Shown piece by piece: positions 752 to 47,636 of a stretch of 47,636 bases of DNA. The number at the start of each line of letters is the position of its first letter. Within the stretch, counting starts at the first letter, position 1. Made by a program: the position numbers and the translations under genes. Origin of the DNA: a virus; IMG/VR virus record IMGVR_UViG_3300038708_000015, positions 1 through 47,636 of that record; one strand, written 5' to 3'. Below the pieces are notes generated by a model that was not told the origin of the DNA, searched no databases, and saw nothing but the letters and a program-made list of their open reading frames with translations.

Positions 752-847
752 ATGGCAAACCAAGATTTTCTTAATGAAATCAATAAGCGAAGGACCTTTG
801 CTATCATCTCGCACCCAGATAATAGTAAGCGTTTTTATTGCTTATAG
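752..847 (+). pseudogene. prfC: Displaced 5' fragment of prfC (release factor RF3)
   Basis: ATG at 752 opens a 31-codon frame whose first 23 residues (MANQDFLNEINKRR, then TFAIISHPD) match the RF3 N-terminus. It then runs into phage DNA (NSKRFYCL) and stops at 845-847, before the G1 loop of the GTPase. This is the original prfC start, left behind with its promoter when the element inserted. The same segment recurs at 47503 joined to the rest of prfC. It may still be transcribed and give a useless short peptide. Confidence 0.93.
806..820 (+). other. attL core (left attachment site)
   Basis: ATCTCGCACCCAGAT is identical to 47551-47565 and is where the left prfC fragment departs from the prfC sequence. 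A second identical tract of 20 bp lies 33 bp upstream (773-792 against 47518-47537). Between them are four mismatches, at 793, 796, 799 and 805. Crossover within the 15-bp tract is the simplest reading, since sequence diverges completely after it on the left and continues as prfC on the right. Confidence 0.85.
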
Positions 848-955: not shown

Positions 956-1000
956 TTTATGGCACCCCGAGTGGTACCCCATTGCGTCGGGGGCCATAAA
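956..1000. repeat. Putative integrase arm-type binding sites, left arm
   Basis: Between attL and int lie TTTATGGCACCCC (956-968) and TGGTACCCC (972-980), two copies of TGGYACCCC spaced 12 bp apart. An inverted copy, GGGGGCCATAAA, is at 989-1000. A 25-bp segment here matches 19 of 25 positions with 47456-47480 at the other end, in the same orientation and with the same 12-bp spacing. Position and repetition fit arm-type sites for the DUF4102-like N-terminal domain of the integrase; binding is inferred. Confidence 0.65.
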
Positions 1001-1047: not shown

Positions 1048-2316
1048 ATGAAGCGGGTAAACTTAACCGACACATGGCTACGAGCGAATAAAGGCAAAAT
1101 ATTCGATAAAGAGAAAACGAAATCTGATTGGGGAGGACTTGAGGCACGACTAAGGAATGGTGTGATTAGCTTTATATACCGTCCACAACTAAAGGACGGT
1201 AGTCGCATTAAGATGACGATAGGTAGGTACCCAGAAATGAGCCTGTCTACAGCCAGAGAAGAAGTGATTAAATACAGGACCGTCGTAGCGAAAGGAGGCG
1301 ACCCGAGGCGAACAAAAGTAGCCGAGATAAACCAGGCGATCACTGAACCAACATTAAACGACGTATTTACATATTGGTTTGATAATTACGCACAAGCGAA
1401 TATTAAAAACACCCAGTACATGAAGCAGCGATTCAAAACGCACATGGGTGACGAGTTCGGGAATCTTTACTATAAGGATCTTTCACGGCACCAAATAGTA
1501 AAGCACCTAATGAAGCGCGCAAAAAATACGCCGAGCATGATAGGTACCGTACTTGGATATACAAAGCAGTCTATTCAATACGCGATAGATCACGACTACC
1601 TGCAGCACCCTCATATATTAGACACATTAAGCTTTACGCACCTAGGCATTAGAAAAAAAGTCAGGACCCGAGCGCTGTCAGAAGTAGAGGTAAGAGAAGT
1701 ACTTCAAGCTGCTGAGAAATGCCAATGGCACGAACGCAATAAGATAATGTTTAAATTGATGTTGTTTTACGGCTGCAGGGGAGCAGAGCTAATGCAAACG
1801 CAAAGAGGCTGGCTAGACTTTGAAAACGGTTTATGGACCGTGCCAGCAGTAAACCACAAAACTGGTATAAAGACCGGCAAGGACCTAATAAGGCCGATCA
1901 TTGACGAAGTAAAACCATTGTGGGAGCAAGCACTCGAGTACAGCAGTAGTGAGTATGTTTTCAACCACATGACAGCCCGAAACACACTCACCGACCAGCC
2001 AATTAAAAGGAACGGGCTACTGCATATAAGCGTCACGTTAATACGCTGGATAAACCAGCAGGAAGACAAAGAACGGTGGCCATTGATTGAAGCTTTTGCA
2101 AACCATGACCTAAGAAGAACGGCGCGCACATTCTGGTCACGCTTTGGGGAATGGTCAGTGTGCGAGAAAATGCTAGGTCACAAACTACCAGGTGAAGCCG
2201 ATGTATACGATACCCACGACTACATAGACAAAATGATACCGGTGTACAAGCATTGGTGGACGGAAATAGAGCGGATACAGTACGGAGAAGGAAAGGTGGT
2301 AAGTTTGAGGGCGTAG
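1048..2316 (+). CDS. int: Tyrosine recombinase / phage integrase
   Basis: This 422-aa site-specific recombinase should integrate the phage into prfC and help excise it. Residues about 20-75 form an Arm-DNA-binding (DUF4102/PF13356-like) domain ending in TIGRYPEMSLSTAR. A core-binding region follows, then the catalytic domain with R244 (GCRGAE), K271 (HKTG), H353-x-x-R356 (HDLR), H378 (LGHK) and nucleophile Tyr387 nine residues later. The length is normal for P4/SXT-type integrases. ATG 1048 is preferred over the in-frame extension back to 1000 because family homology starts at LTDTWLR. It lies next to attL and converges with the early operon, 4 bp away. A second copy of its first domain is at 24639-24923. 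Confidence 0.97.
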   Translation: MKRVNLTDTWLRANKGKIFDKEKTKSDWGGLEARLRNGVISFIYRPQLKDGSRIKMTIGRYPEMSLSTAREEVIKYRTVVAKGGDPRRTKVAEINQAITEPTLNDVFTYWFDNYAQANIKNTQYMKQRFKTHMGDEFGNLYYKDLSRHQIVKHLMKRAKNTPSMIGTVLGYTKQSIQYAIDHDYLQHPHILDTLSFTHLGIRKKVRTRALSEVEVREVLQAAEKCQWHERNKIMFKLMLFYGCRGAELMQTQRGWLDFENGLWTVPAVNHKTGIKTGKDLIRPIIDEVKPLWEQALEYSSSEYVFNHMTARNTLTDQPIKRNGLLHISVTLIRWINQQEDKERWPLIEAFANHDLRRTARTFWSRFGEWSVCEKMLGHKLPGEADVYDTHDYIDKMIPVYKHWWTEIERIQYGEGKVVSLRA

Positions 2317-4557: not shown

Positions 4558-5123
4558 GCCACACCATCCAATTTGATAGAATTATCAACCTGATTACCAA
4601 ACACATCCCAGCCAGGTGCCGATGTACGAGCGAACATTTCAAGACGTGGCACATCACCACACAAGCGCTCAATGTCGGCGCGAAACTCGGCTGGCTTCTC
4701 GCTATGAATTCCAACAGGGGCAGCGCGAACAGACCTAATCGACTTACACTTGATAAGGTTTTTCATCTTGCCCTTAAAGCCAATAAGCGCACTTTCTGAG
4801 CCTTGTCGGGTAGTACCCATGCCAAAGAAAGGGAGTAAGTTTTCACTGGTCAGCTTCACCCACACAAAGCCAGTCATTGTGGAGAATTTAAAGCCCCAGG
4901 CTTCACATAACTCAACAGCCTCAATAGGCTGGCTAGCAACATGCCACATGACCAGGAGGCAATCATCATCACAGAGGCTAGCAACGTCCATGGCTTTCAT
5001 TTCGTCGAGCGTCATAACATCGTATTTCTGCTCTGCAGCAGAATTCATGCTGCCACCGGTCTTTTTGTTATTGAATGACCAGGGAGGATCAGCATAGATA
5101 ACGCGGTATTTAGGCTTATCCAT
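4554..5123 (-). CDS. MT-A70 family DNA N6-adenine methyltransferase
   Basis: This 189-aa protein has the MT-A70 catalytic motif DPPW (VIYADPPWSF, residues about 9-18), the aromatic segment LLVMWHVAS and the C-terminal pattern HSEKPAEFRADIERLCG typical of the family. It should transfer methyl groups from SAM to adenine N6 in DNA. The start at 5123 (MDKPKYRVIYADPPW) is chosen because it places the motif at the normal position and overlaps the upstream stop by 8 bp; the frame to 5159 adds an unlikely leader. No restriction enzyme lies next to it, so protection against host restriction or regulation is the likely use. Confidence 0.9.
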   Translation of the reverse strand: MDKPKYRVIYADPPWSFNNKKTGGSMNSAAEQKYDVMTLDEMKAMDVASLCDDDCLLVMWHVASQPIEAVELCEAWGFKFSTMTGFVWVKLTSENLLPFFGMGTTRQGSESALIGFKGKMKNLIKCKSIRSVRAAPVGIHSEKPAEFRADIERLCGDVPRLEMFARTSAPGWDVFGNQVDNSIKLDGVA

Positions 5124-5310
5124 TGGCAACCTCACCACACTCAAAATGAACACTTTCAAACGCCTCGATAGCCTCTATTGAATAAAGGTTTTTGTGAGGC
5201 CCCACAGGATCAGGGAAATTATATTGCTTGCGCCAGTTGTACAGGGTACGACGGCTAATGCCGCCGAACCGCTCTACTACCTGGGCTACATTTAAATAGC
5301 CTTTTTTCAT
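5116..5310 (-). CDS. AlpA/MerR-type helix-turn-helix protein, possible excisionase
   Basis: This 64-residue winged-HTH protein has the pattern YLNVAQVVERFGGISRRTLYNW, then FPDPVG and YSIEAIEAFE, as in AlpA and phage excisionase-like DNA-binding proteins. Such proteins bend DNA or activate int/xis promoters and can act as recombination directionality factors. The gene is the third of the leftward operon, directly after recT (1-bp gap). No other excisionase candidate lies near int, so this is the best Xis candidate, though a regulatory role is equally possible. Confidence 0.7.
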   Translation of the reverse strand: MKKGYLNVAQVVERFGGISRRTLYNWRKQYNFPDPVGPHKNLYSIEAIEAFESVHFECGEVANG

Positions 5311-22370: not shown

Positions 22371-22715
22371 ATGGCAGATAGAAAATTAACCAACATAGAC
22401 GACTTTATGTCTGAACTCGAGGCAGGGATTTTTAAAGACCGATTAGCTTTAATGTTGACAGATTCAGCACTCGGCGCAGTCGTTAACAATGCGGTCGGCA
22501 AAGTAAAAATTGAATTCAACATCAAACGCTTGAACGAGCATGGCCAAGTGATGATTGAAACAAAGCTTCAACACGTAAAGCCCACCAAACGTGGAGCCAT
22601 AGCAGAACACCTGAGCAGCCAAACCCCAATGTGGGTAGGTCGCGGAGGCGTAGTTACCATTGAGCAGCCCAAAGAAGAAATAACGGGCCAATTCACTTTA
22701 GTAGAAAACAAATAA
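22371..22715 (+). CDS. Hypothetical partner of the DUF2303 protein (114 aa)
   Basis: The 114-aa protein (MADRKLTNIDDFMSELEAG) begins after a ribosome site CCGGAG and sits 9 bp before the DUF2303 gene. Its central part contains AVGKVKIEFNIKRLNEHGQVMIETKL and reads as a beta-rich fold. Small genes in this position usually accompany YfdQ-like genes in enterobacterial prophages. I do not know the function. Confidence 0.6.
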   Translation: MADRKLTNIDDFMSELEAGIFKDRLALMLTDSALGAVVNNAVGKVKIEFNIKRLNEHGQVMIETKLQHVKPTKRGAIAEHLSSQTPMWVGRGGVVTIEQPKEEITGQFTLVENK

Positions 22716-22724
22716 GGTACCATC

Positions 22725-23537
22725 ATGGATAAATCAGCAATTAATCAAATTCAAGAAAGCGCTGGCGTCAACAAAGTCGCTGAAATGCTAAAAGCGGAAG
22801 GTATTGGTGGCTTGATAGTCTCAACCGACACAGTAGGGTTTAAAGACCTTGAAAAATTCATGCCCAATGCGCGCCATTTTAGGCTTAGTTTCGCCACGAA
22901 CCAGATAAGTGAATTTGAAGGTTATGTAGAAAAAAATATCAGCGACGACACTCAGATTTTTATTGATGAAAGTAACCTGAGCGCAGAATGTATTTTCGAT
23001 CTTGGCACCCCTGCCAAGCCATTGCACAAAAACCATAGCGCTAAATTGATTTTGAAGAAAACAGCGGTCTATAGAGCGATATTAGATATTGAAGAAAGGC
23101 AATGTGATCAGCAGACCATTGCTGAGTTCTTGGAAGACTGGAAAAGCGAAATACATAGTATAGATACAAACGGCGGCGAAGTGATGACGGTAGGGCAAGC
23201 AGCTTCATCGGTGCGGAACCTTACCATTGAGCAAGCACGTGAAATAAACTCCAAAGTTGATAACTTCGGATACGAAGCCAGTGCCATGGAAAGGATAGAA
23301 GCGAAAAACAAGGATGCACTACCATCCACAATAAACTTCAAAATTTCTACCCATCAAGGACTAAACAAAAGAGACATAACGTTGAGACTCTCAATTCTCA
23401 CCGGTATGGATAAGCCTAAAATCAAGCTTAGAATTGTAGGCGAGGAAACCATATCCGAAGAAATAGCCGAAGAGTTCAAAGATATTCTTAATGGAAGCCT
23501 CGCTGAGAAGGCAACTATTTATATAGGCACAATTTAA
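22725..23537 (+). CDS. DUF2303 (YfdQ-like) protein
   Basis: The 270-aa protein has the DUF2303 outline: a short N-terminal segment, then DLEKFMPNARHFRLSFATNQISEF, followed by HSAKLILKKTAVYRAIL and TIAEFLEDW. YfdQ relatives occur in many prophages, close to recombination or host-takeover genes, with no proven role. An intrinsic terminator follows the stop (23546-23567), which ends the operon here. Confidence 0.8.
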   Translation: MDKSAINQIQESAGVNKVAEMLKAEGIGGLIVSTDTVGFKDLEKFMPNARHFRLSFATNQISEFEGYVEKNISDDTQIFIDESNLSAECIFDLGTPAKPLHKNHSAKLILKKTAVYRAILDIEERQCDQQTIAEFLEDWKSEIHSIDTNGGEVMTVGQAASSVRNLTIEQAREINSKVDNFGYEASAMERIEAKNKDALPSTINFKISTHQGLNKRDITLRLSILTGMDKPKIKLRIVGEETISEEIAEEFKDILNGSLAEKATIYIGTI

Positions 23538-24616: not shown

Positions 24617-24640
24617 AAGGCCTCAAACGAGGCCTTTTTT
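24617..24640. terminator. Terminator between convergent lipoprotein and arm-domain genes
   Basis: AAGGCCTC (24617-24624) pairs with GAGGCCTT (24629-24636) around a 4-nt loop, with T to 24640 for the rightward gene. On the minus strand the stem is followed by a weaker T-rich stretch, so it may stop both convergent transcripts. The leftward gene's stop codon (24639-24641) lies within the T tract. Confidence 0.8.
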
Positions 24641-24923
24641 ATTTCATCCATTCTGCTTTGCGAGTTCGCCTCGGGTCGCCTCCTTTCGCTACGACGGTCC
24701 TGTATTTGATCACTTCTTCTCTGGCTGTAGACAGACTCATTTCTGGGTACCTGCCTATCGTCATCTTAATGCGACTACCGTCCTTTAATTGTGGCCGGTA
24801 TATAAAACTGATCACACCATTTCTTAGCCGTGCCTCGAGTCCTCCCCCATCAGATTTCGTTTTCTCTTTATCGAATATTTTGCCTTTATTCGCTCGTAGC
24901 CATGTGTCAGTTAATCTTCTCAT
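24639..24923 (-). CDS. Free-standing integrase arm-DNA-binding domain protein (94 aa)
   Basis: The protein reproduces the first domain of the integrase: residues 4-87 match integrase 6-89 at 83 of 84 positions, ending TIGRYPEMSLSTAR and GGDPRRT, then a private tail RKAEWMK and a stop. Its own start MRRLTDTWL differs. At DNA level 1063-1314 and the complement of 24663-24914 differ at 13 of 252 bases, 12 of them synonymous; the one change is Trp28 to Gly. Start ATGA overlaps the KilA-N gene stop, so it is translationally coupled. Arm-site competition with Int, altering integration or excision, is the inferred role; a recombination remnant is the alternative. Confidence 0.8.
   Translation of the reverse strand: MRRLTDTWLRANKGKIFDKEKTKSDGGGLEARLRNGVISFIYRPQLKDGSRIKMTIGRYPEMSLSTAREEVIKYRTVVAKGGDPRRTRKAEWMK
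24663..24914. repeat. Inverted copy of the int 5' segment (1063-1314)
   Basis: A 252-bp segment inverted relative to 1063-1314 and 94.8% identical by hand alignment (13 substitutions, no indels). The identity ends at the codon after the arm domain on one side and just after the start codon on the other, so the copied unit equals a protein domain. Homologous recombination between the two could invert the 23-kb segment between them. Confidence 0.9.
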
Positions 24924-25660
24924 TCATCACATCCTAACAACTTTTTATTGGAAGGAGATTTAAATGCGTCGAATAATGCACTCAATCCTTGCCCTGTAAT
25001 ATTCGTGTCAGGTTGGATATTATTTTGATCGTCAGGCCCAACTAACCGCAACTGAAGAATTCCTTCATCGATTTTTTGTTGACTCGGCATTAAATCACTC
25101 CCTATCCACTCAAGAGACACTAAAACTGACTGAAGCTTGGAAGCGCTAGTATTTAATAATTTTGCGGCTGTACTAAGCCCTACTGAGCCTTCTGATATTC
25201 TCAATGCGTGCGCAAACTCGACAGCTTCACTGTTTACAGCGATGAGACTTTTTAGTCTTATATTTTCCTCTTCAGCTTCCATAGCGATCTTCAGGATCTC
25301 ATGCCTAGAAAGCGTCTTAACTTTCGACTCTTGTAGCTTCCCTGAGCGATAATCAAGAAACACCTGGTTAACCTTTAACTGGAAAGCGGGGCTAATCCAA
25401 CCGGCATAGCTTATCGCCAGTAGTTCGTGGGCGTAAGTGCCAGGGGAAGATCCGCCTCTAACTGAATTGATTGCATTCTGACCTAAGCGGGAATTCACAC
25501 TTAGCTCTTTTACGAGATCCTTTGATTGCTTTGTTCTAATCCACTCGCTCGGCTTTTTGTGTGACTCACCACCACTTGCCCTATGCAGCGCATTGAGATT
25601 AAAACGGCCCTGATCATCGGTGTTTACGGGCACACCAGCCACTACGGGTAAATTGTTCAT
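24920..25660 (-). CDS. KilA-N domain antirepressor
   Basis: The 246-aa protein has a KilA-N DNA-binding domain in the first 115 residues (RFNLNALHRASGGESHKKPS, SVRGGSSPGTYAHELLAISY, WISPAFQLKVNQVFLDY) and a C-terminal ANT-like HTH (SEGSVGLSTAAKLLNTSASK, LQSVLVSLEWIG). Such proteins overturn phage immunity by binding repressors. It is the second gene of the leftward C4-controlled operon; ATG 25660 follows AGGAGG. Its stop overlaps the arm-domain gene start. Low-level expression is expected in the lysogen. Confidence 0.85.
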   Translation of the reverse strand: MNNLPVVAGVPVNTDDQGRFNLNALHRASGGESHKKPSEWIRTKQSKDLVKELSVNSRLGQNAINSVRGGSSPGTYAHELLAISYAGWISPAFQLKVNQVFLDYRSGKLQESKVKTLSRHEILKIAMEAEEENIRLKSLIAVNSEAVEFAHALRISEGSVGLSTAAKLLNTSASKLQSVLVSLEWIGSDLMPSQQKIDEGILQLRLVGPDDQNNIQPDTNITGQGLSALFDAFKSPSNKKLLGCDE

Positions 25661-25669
25661 GTGAGCCTC

Positions 25670-25981
25670 CTAGTGAACGTCGCCAGACAATACCAGGCCA
25701 ACCGTCATCAAACGGTTGATGCATACATCCGTCAACTCAAGCAGAGCGTCGAGCTGTAGCCGATATTCTTCGGCGGTGTCGAGGAGGTCAAATACACCTT
25801 CGGGATCTTTAGCAAATTGTGAGTGAAGTTCATTGCCGGACAGGGTGAGCAGTTGCAAGGTCGCAATGCGATTAGCTTTATGCTCACTGGCCGTCATTTC
25901 GCGGCGATACAGGTCGTTAAGGGTGATTTCAGGTTGGAACGAGAGAGCGCTGTCACCGCGCTTGGTGGTTGAGTTAGTCAT
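25670..25981 (-). CDS. Small protein in the icd position of a C4-type operon (103 aa)
   Basis: The 103-aa protein (MTNSTTKRGDSALSFQPEIT, later TAEEYRLQLDALLELTDVCI) is largely helical. It lies between the C4-like RNA and the antirepressor gene, where P1 has icd and Gifsy-type prophages have orf45. It has no recognised domain. Its ribosome site is AAGGAG (inside 25988-25997), part of a sequence complementary to the C4-like RNA, so its translation, and through coupling that of the next genes, should be inhibited by C4. Confidence 0.65.
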   Translation of the reverse strand: MTNSTTKRGDSALSFQPEITLNDLYRREMTASEHKANRIATLQLLTLSGNELHSQFAKDPEGVFDLLDTAEEYRLQLDALLELTDVCINRLMTVGLVLSGDVH

Positions 25982-26010
25982 TTCTGACTCCTTGTAGATT
26001 TAAGTTAATT

Positions 26011-26110
26011 TGCCACTTAGTAGGTGGCGGGTCTCAACTAAAGCTCTACAAGAAGCTCCGGGCCTATTCCCCTTGCGGGTTTTGTATTACGCCTCTAAAC
26101 CCGCCATTGA
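26011..26110 (-). ncRNA. C4-like antisense RNA upstream of the antirepressor
   Basis: On the minus strand, ACCCGCAAGGGGAATAGGCC and GTTGAGACCCGCCA are typical of the C4 antisense RNA family (P1/P7 c4, widespread before phage antirepressor genes). Hairpins are GCGGGTTT/AAACCCGC with a 14-nt loop (about 26074-26103) and GCCAC/GTGGC (26012-26028). The loop element CTTCTTGTAG (complement of 26046-26055) can pair with CTACAAGGAG, the Shine-Dalgarno region of the next gene (25988-25997): 9 Watson-Crick pairs plus one G-U. This is the C4 mechanism: cleaved RNA blocks icd and ant translation. Family assignment is from memory and needs an Rfam search. Confidence 0.78.
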
Positions 26111-26139: not shown

Positions 26140-26190
26140 AAAAAAACCGCAAGGTTTTTCGGTTGCGGCTGGCCGCTTGTAGAATTTTAG
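26140..26190 (-). ncRNA. Short IsrK-like leader RNA ending at an intrinsic terminator
   Basis: Downstream of the promoter at 26198-26226 the minus-strand transcript would run about 50 nt to a terminator: CCGCAA (26168-26163) pairs with TTGCGG (26152-26147), followed by seven T (26146-26140). The RNA contains TCTACAAG (complement of 26176-26183), the same octamer that C4 can bind at the next gene. Gifsy-1 isrK lies in the same place before orf45-anrP. It is inferred that read-through yields C4 and the antirepressor operon. Confidence 0.6.
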
Positions 26191-47455: not shown

Positions 47456-47480
47456 TTTATGGCCCCCCTAACGGCACCCA
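47456..47480. repeat. Putative integrase arm-type sites, right arm
   Basis: TTTATGGCCCCCC (47456-47468) is followed by CGGCACCCA (47472-47480), again with 12-bp spacing between repeats, in the same orientation as the left arm (956-980; 19 of 25 positions match). It lies 71 bp before the attR core, between the late terminator and the new prfC start. Confidence 0.62.
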
Positions 47481-47502: not shown

Positions 47503-47636
47503 ATGAATAATTTTATCAATGAAATCAATAAGCGAAGAACGTTCGCTATTATCTCGCACCCAGATGCGGGTAAAACCACCATTACTGAAAAAGTACTGTT
47601 GTTCGGAAACGCACTGCAAACTGCAGGTACGGTAAA
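47503..47636 (+). CDS. prfC: prfC (release factor RF3), phage-supplied 5' end; runs off the window
   Basis: [12 protein letters not shown], then [20 protein letters not shown] shows RF3 with an intact G1 loop (DAGKTT). RF3 is a GTPase that recycles RF1/RF2. The coding sequence up to the core (47551) comes from the phage attP and differs from the displaced host copy in its first codons (MNNFI against MANQD..L). After the core it is chromosomal. The four changes shared with the left copy are all at third codon positions, so the protein is preserved. A phage-derived promoter must drive it, since the late terminator lies upstream; I could not identify that promoter with confidence. Confidence 0.94.
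47551..47565 (+). other. attR core (right attachment site)
   Basis: ATCTCGCACCCAGAT, identical to 806-820, is the right junction; prfC continues after it. With crossover here the prophage is about 46,745 bp. Confidence 0.85.

Follow-up and report, generated by a model that had tools for sequence, protein, structure and literature searches.

A prophage gene of 94 codons was found to encode only the arm-type DNA-binding domain of a tyrosine integrase, to stand as the last gene of an antirepressor operon, to have been kept intact by selection and to be a mosaic whose core matches the phage's own integrase while its edges match a free gene in another phage. On this sequence evidence its product probably works as a control protein that couples the lytic decision to the control of integration. 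The window (the whole stretch of 47,636 nucleotides that was analyzed) is a prophage from a 47.6-kb virus record with a tyrosine integrase gene at 1048-2316 and a Mu-like head region, and inside the head region lies a minus-strand operon made up of a leader RNA, a 103-aa gene, a KilA-N/KilAC gene, the 94-aa gene and a hairpin.

A Free Arm Domain under Selection

The 94-aa gene is an ATG-TAA open reading frame at 24639-24923 on the minus strand. The sole Pfam match of its product was PF13356 (Arm-DNA-bind_3; 67 bits against a cut-off of 27), with residues 4-91 covering positions 1-83 of the 83-position profile, i.e., the whole domain. PF00589 and the core-binding and catalytic domains are absent, since the frame stops where the arm domain ends, and the protein is not a tyrosine recombinase. 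AlphaFold modeled it with a pLDDT of 91 from only three aligned sequences, and a Foldseek search with the predicted model gave as its only significant solved matches the isolated arm-type domains of the HAI7 and HPI integrases (3JU0, 3JTZ and 3RMP, prob 1.00; E 8e-5 for 3JU0/3JTZ; TM 0.68-0.77, rmsd 1.3-2.1 Å), the 3RMP entry being titled for the recognition of attP substrates by P4-like integrases. The protein is predicted to have the arm-type fold of these isolated domains, and with PF13356 and this fold only it lacks a winged helix or HTH of the Xis/AlpA/TorI type. It thus shares predicted fold and sequence family (PF13356) with the arm domains of P4-like integrases; those of HPI and HAI7, however, are parts of full integrases that were isolated in the laboratory and solved alone, whereas the arm domain in the window occurs naturally as a gene of its own, in a different operon.

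Codons 4-87 of the copy (24663-24914, minus strand) were aligned with codons 6-89 of the integrase gene int (1063-1314), giving 84 codons. Thirteen of the 252 bases differ (94.8% nucleotide identity), 12 of them synonymously and one with a replacement. The recount is the same as that in the original prediction, which had also described the gene as holding only the arm domain of the phage's own integrase, as the single Pfam match and this alignment bear out. NG86 estimates were dS 0.227 and dN 0.0053 (ratio 0.023), and in a neutral simulation 13 random changes led to about nine amino acid changes, with one change or none in 0 of 20,000 runs. The replacement had been given as Trp28Gly; it is real, but the Gly is residue 26 of the copy and the Trp residue 28 of the integrase. 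At this position Gly (or Arg) is usual, both in the second phage described below (contig L003) and mostly in related integrases, so that by this comparison the odd residue is the integrase's, the copy retaining the usual DGGGL. Codon 28 of int (1129-1131) thereby places a Trp within an arm-domain motif that usually reads DGGGL or DRDGL.

The Operon and its Antisense Leader

The operon begins with a structured leader RNA (26018-26105, minus strand) that matched Rfam RF02221, sRNA-Xcc1, at 59.2 bits and did not match the Rfam C4 family. Downstream lie the 103-aa gene (25670-25981, minus strand), which takes an icd-like position and had no family match in Pfam or PHROG, and the gene for a 246-aa KilA-N/KilAC (ANT) antirepressor (24920-25660, minus strand; PF04383, 79 bits; PF03374, 38 bits) with 41% identity to P1 KilA. 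The antirepressor stop and the arm gene start overlap as ATGA at 24920-24923. Just 3′ of the arm gene, between convergent genes, is a rho-independent terminator-like hairpin (24617-24636), which by itself was not above chance in the pattern scan; a similar hairpin lies 3′ of the L003 arm gene.

In the leader, the antisense loop GCUUCUUGUAGA (26045-26056, minus strand) is complementary over 12 bp to UCUACAAGGAGU (25987-25998, minus strand), which overlaps the Shine-Dalgarno sequence of the 103-aa gene, and a second target-like copy, UUCUACAAGCGG (26173-26184, minus strand), lies upstream of the RNA. The L003 leader (L003:5559-5643; RF02221, 47.5 bits) has a loop, GUUUCGUAUGA, that pairs with UCAUACGGAGU over 11 bp through compensatory changes, and the upstream target copy there, CAUCAUACGCGG, has changed in the same way as the Shine-Dalgarno target. 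The leader is thus complementary, in an allele-specific manner, to the Shine-Dalgarno region of the first gene, as in C4 operons, and by pairing and covariation it looks like a C4-like antisense control.

The same principle, a loop pairing with a Shine-Dalgarno sequence, underlies the P1/P7 C4 antisense RNA. The immI region of these phages (C4 antisense RNA, icd, ant) likewise has an antisense leader with allele-specific pairing, a small first gene and an antirepressor, although the leader in the window matches RF02221 and not the Rfam C4 model. No integrase arm gene is known from the P1/P7 immI-kilA region. In P1 the order is c4-icd-ant1/2-kilA, with C4 and Icd regulating Ant (PMC8201110). 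The published account of sRNA-Xcc1 is of a Xanthomonas sRNA with no known role (PMC2996969); in these phages the three-way covariation of loop, Shine-Dalgarno target and upstream target copy gives RF02221 the look of a C4-like antisense leader for antirepressor operons of phages. A homologous leader (73%) also precedes an antirepressor followed by a gene acting on the attachment site in Stx phage vB_EcoS_P27 (KU238067), where the order after the leader is AntB, Xis and int; there the antirepressor is AntB and the downstream gene Xis, whereas the window has KilA-N and the arm gene. Other phages with the leader carry different downstream genes.

A Second Case in an Independently Sampled Phage

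An IMG/VR search with the KilA-N protein led to L003, an independently sampled 20-kb phage contig with an intact 94-aa arm gene (L003:6732-7016; 70% amino acid identity) at the same operon position, behind an RF02221-like leader, a 103-aa gene (87% identical) and a KilA-N gene (56% identical). Both arm genes have the ATGA overlap with the KilA-N stop, the start MxRLTDTW, two residues shorter than in Int, and the tail RKAE[W/L]MK, which in the window (RKAEWMK, codons 88-94, 24642-24662, minus strand) is shared with L003 and not with int. The start, tail, stop and coupling that had been read as the gene's own were therefore seen in both phages. Synonymous sites between the two genes are saturated and both frames are open, and identity between the two proteins reaches 83% in the predicted strand region (residues 19-60) against 53-56% in the flanks. 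The same arrangement on a separate contig rules out a chance open reading frame or an assembly artefact.

The intact L003 orthologue, with the same overlap, start and tail, argues for a maintained gene and not a fresh leftover; together with the dN/dS ratio it upholds the earlier claim that selection has kept the protein. Homologous prophages had been proposed as a test, a broken or absent second copy speaking against the gene, and the outcome favors a selected gene: L003 is intact, and two further contigs, L034 and L035 (86% identical capsid), lack the whole cassette and hold no broken copy. Between the window and L003 the surrounding DNA is mostly 95-100% identical and the cassette (about 24.2 to 26.3 kb) mostly 45-80% identical, and the cassette was therefore exchanged as a unit; as other genes occupy its position in L034 and L035, this is a swap site for accessory genes. 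Those genes encode a membrane-like protein of 246 aa and an HTH protein of 94 aa (L035:6545-7574). Elsewhere, window positions 22700-23500 (270-aa gene, 22725-23537) have no counterpart in the L003 contig, and both sides match closely.

The Core of the Gene Matches the Resident Integrase

The core of the copy is 95% identical in nucleotides to the phage's own integrase gene against 64% to L003, whereas the tail is 81% identical to L003 (6/7 amino acids) against 33% to int. Since start, tail, stop and overlap are common to both phages, the free gene predates the split from L003, and since its edges match L003 and its core int, the free gene came first and its core was homogenised with int later. 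At the 13 bases that differ between copy and int, L003 agrees with the copy at seven, with int at four and with neither at two. Alternatively, int may have acquired its arm domain from the free gene, the direction not being readable from the sequence. The original prediction of a duplicated integrase domain thus stands as to the likeness to int and the reality of a selected, stand-alone arm domain, and falls as to a simple recent duplication; a fresh int duplicate as the whole story is ruled out, because the start and tail are those of the L003 lineage. Homogenisation was observed in one genome, among two cases of the free gene in all: the 20-kb L003 contig carries no integrase, so the match between free protein and integrase was observed in just one phage.

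The Arrangement Is Rare

A KilA-N gene coupled to an arm gene is a rare arrangement. When IMG/VR was scanned with the arm domain, KilA-N, the integrase, the 103-aa protein and a DNA pattern, L003 was the only further case to emerge. The proposed search for such gene pairs elsewhere thus yielded this one pair, and about 20 other KilA-N/ANT loci (some redundant) had no arm open reading frame nearby, which rules out a general feature of KilA-N operons. The arm-domain profile, run against 395 order, 152 family and 312 class genomes, met essentially only full-length integrases, with one 148-aa open frame (G468:C1:1501471) among the matches; these surveys used strict E-values and one genome per species, and divergent cases could escape them. 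Phage and plasmid tblastn matches were mostly annotated integrases, with a few labeled 'hypothetical protein', all below 60% identity, and literature searches turned up no free arm-domain protein. A comparable family, phrog_3423 (157 positions; unknown function), is a phage family comprising an arm domain and the start of the core-binding domain; it also matches the N-terminus of the intact integrase and looks like truncated integrases, not like an operon-coupled gene for the arm domain only.

Candidate Arm Sites at the Prophage Ends

The 422-aa integrase (1048-2316, plus strand; PF13356 and PF00589) has its arm domain codons at 1063-1314. The motif TTTATGGCMCCC has exactly three exact copies in the whole window, all at the prophage ends, and the arm sites predicted at 956-1000 and 47456-47480 hold up accordingly. 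The candidates are TTTATGGCACCC (956-967, plus strand) and an inverted TTTATGGCCCCC (989-1000, minus strand) upstream of int, and TTTATGGCCCCC (47456-47467, plus strand) at the right end; for a shorter 10-mer of the site, 0.2 copies would be expected by chance. The two left sites precede the int ATG by 48-92 bp, and all three lie between the 15-bp attachment cores, ATCTCGCACCCAGAT on the left (806-820, plus strand) and its counterpart in host prfC on the right (47551-47565, plus strand), and the phage genes. None of the three lies in the operon and no arm-site-like sequence was present near it, so that no autoregulation of the operon is implied. A consensus scan found no int promoter.

Host prfC carries the prophage (1-820 and 47503-47636) at a 15-bp core shared with the neighboring end of an SXT/R391-type ICE. 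Segment 1-820 is 91.6% identical to Proteus mirabilis records, with the match stopping at 820, and the prophage brings its own prfC start. A 64-aa HTH protein (5116-5310, minus strand) is a candidate recombination directionality factor.

A Possible Role in Recombination Control

We give an even chance to a role of the free arm protein, suggested by the sequence, as a trans-acting arm-site ligand that is made with the antirepressor and competes with Int, represses int, or both. Release of the antisense-controlled operon, on induction or on infection without immunity, would yield antirepressor and arm protein together; the latter would share the TTTATGGCMCCC candidate sites with Int but neither bind the core nor carry out catalysis, and the occupied arms would keep full Int from building an integrative complex. 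Because two candidate sites lie in the int upstream region, int expression may also be lowered, and antirepression would thereby be coupled to a no-integration state. Recombination between the free gene and int would keep the binding surface matched to the resident integrase. The more specific proposal, in which a recombination regulator co-expressed with the antirepressor is a free decoy kept matched to int through concerted evolution, is offered tentatively, at somewhat less than an even chance.

We base competition or repression on the intact L003 orthologue, the dN/dS ratio of 0.023 and the conserved region 19-60; on the predicted arm-type fold, including the 3RMP match, and candidate sites only at the prophage ends; and on a core matching the resident int with edges matching L003, and the C4-like leader with compensatory pairing. 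Precedents are the AntB-Xis-int order of Stx phage P27 and KplE1, in which binding of IntS in attL, overlapping the int promoter, represses int (PMC2951348). Here, too, candidate arm sites of the integrase lie over the region upstream of int, so that an arm binder could repress int; in KplE1, however, repression is by full-length IntS and TorI, with no free arm protein. Counting against are the rarity of the arrangement, the lack of the cassette in L034 and L035, the int promoter not found by the consensus scan, the matching in one phage only and the lack of an arm-site-like sequence near the operon.

Rather than opposing Int, the protein might help excision, filling selected arm sites or pairing with Int so as to turn integration into excision like a directionality factor. 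It would be made when excision is needed, and the control logic is that of AntB-Xis-int behind the same leader in the Stx phage; yet it does not have a Xis fold, and since its predicted fold is that of the Int arm domain and the separate 64-aa HTH protein is the better candidate, a directionality factor is not favored and we regard help in excision as unlikely. Less probable still is that it acts mainly as a repressor of int through the inverted pair of arm sites, as KplE1 IntS does, with no direct part in recombination: the position of two of the three sites and IntS autoregulation via attL (PMC2951348) agree with this, but the third site at the far end is left unexplained, full-length Int could already do the same and there is the missing consensus promoter.

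That the gene is a captured int fragment, a hitch-hiking leftover of recombination that owes its synonymous pattern to a related intact int, seems improbable. Only two instances are known, the cassette is exchanged between phages and the synonymous differences could have built up in an int lineage, but the free form is older than the L003 split, and both copies have stayed open while dS has reached saturation, their 70% amino acid identity being concentrated in the predicted strand region. An action on another element, such as blocking the arm sites of a competing phage or ICE sharing prfC, is very hard to credit even with an SXT/R391-type ICE end adjoining at the same core, as the protein's core is matched to its own integrase and the three exact sites lie outside the ICE-like segment 1-820.

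Int, Xis and host bending proteins are the factors usually credited with controlling the direction of integration. If arm-site competition or repression of int is the true role, a free arm domain that occurs naturally and is coupled to an antirepressor would add another means of controlling recombination, one that links the decision for lysis directly to the occupancy of the attachment-site arms. The mosaic of free gene and integrase offers a natural test of protein-site co-evolution.
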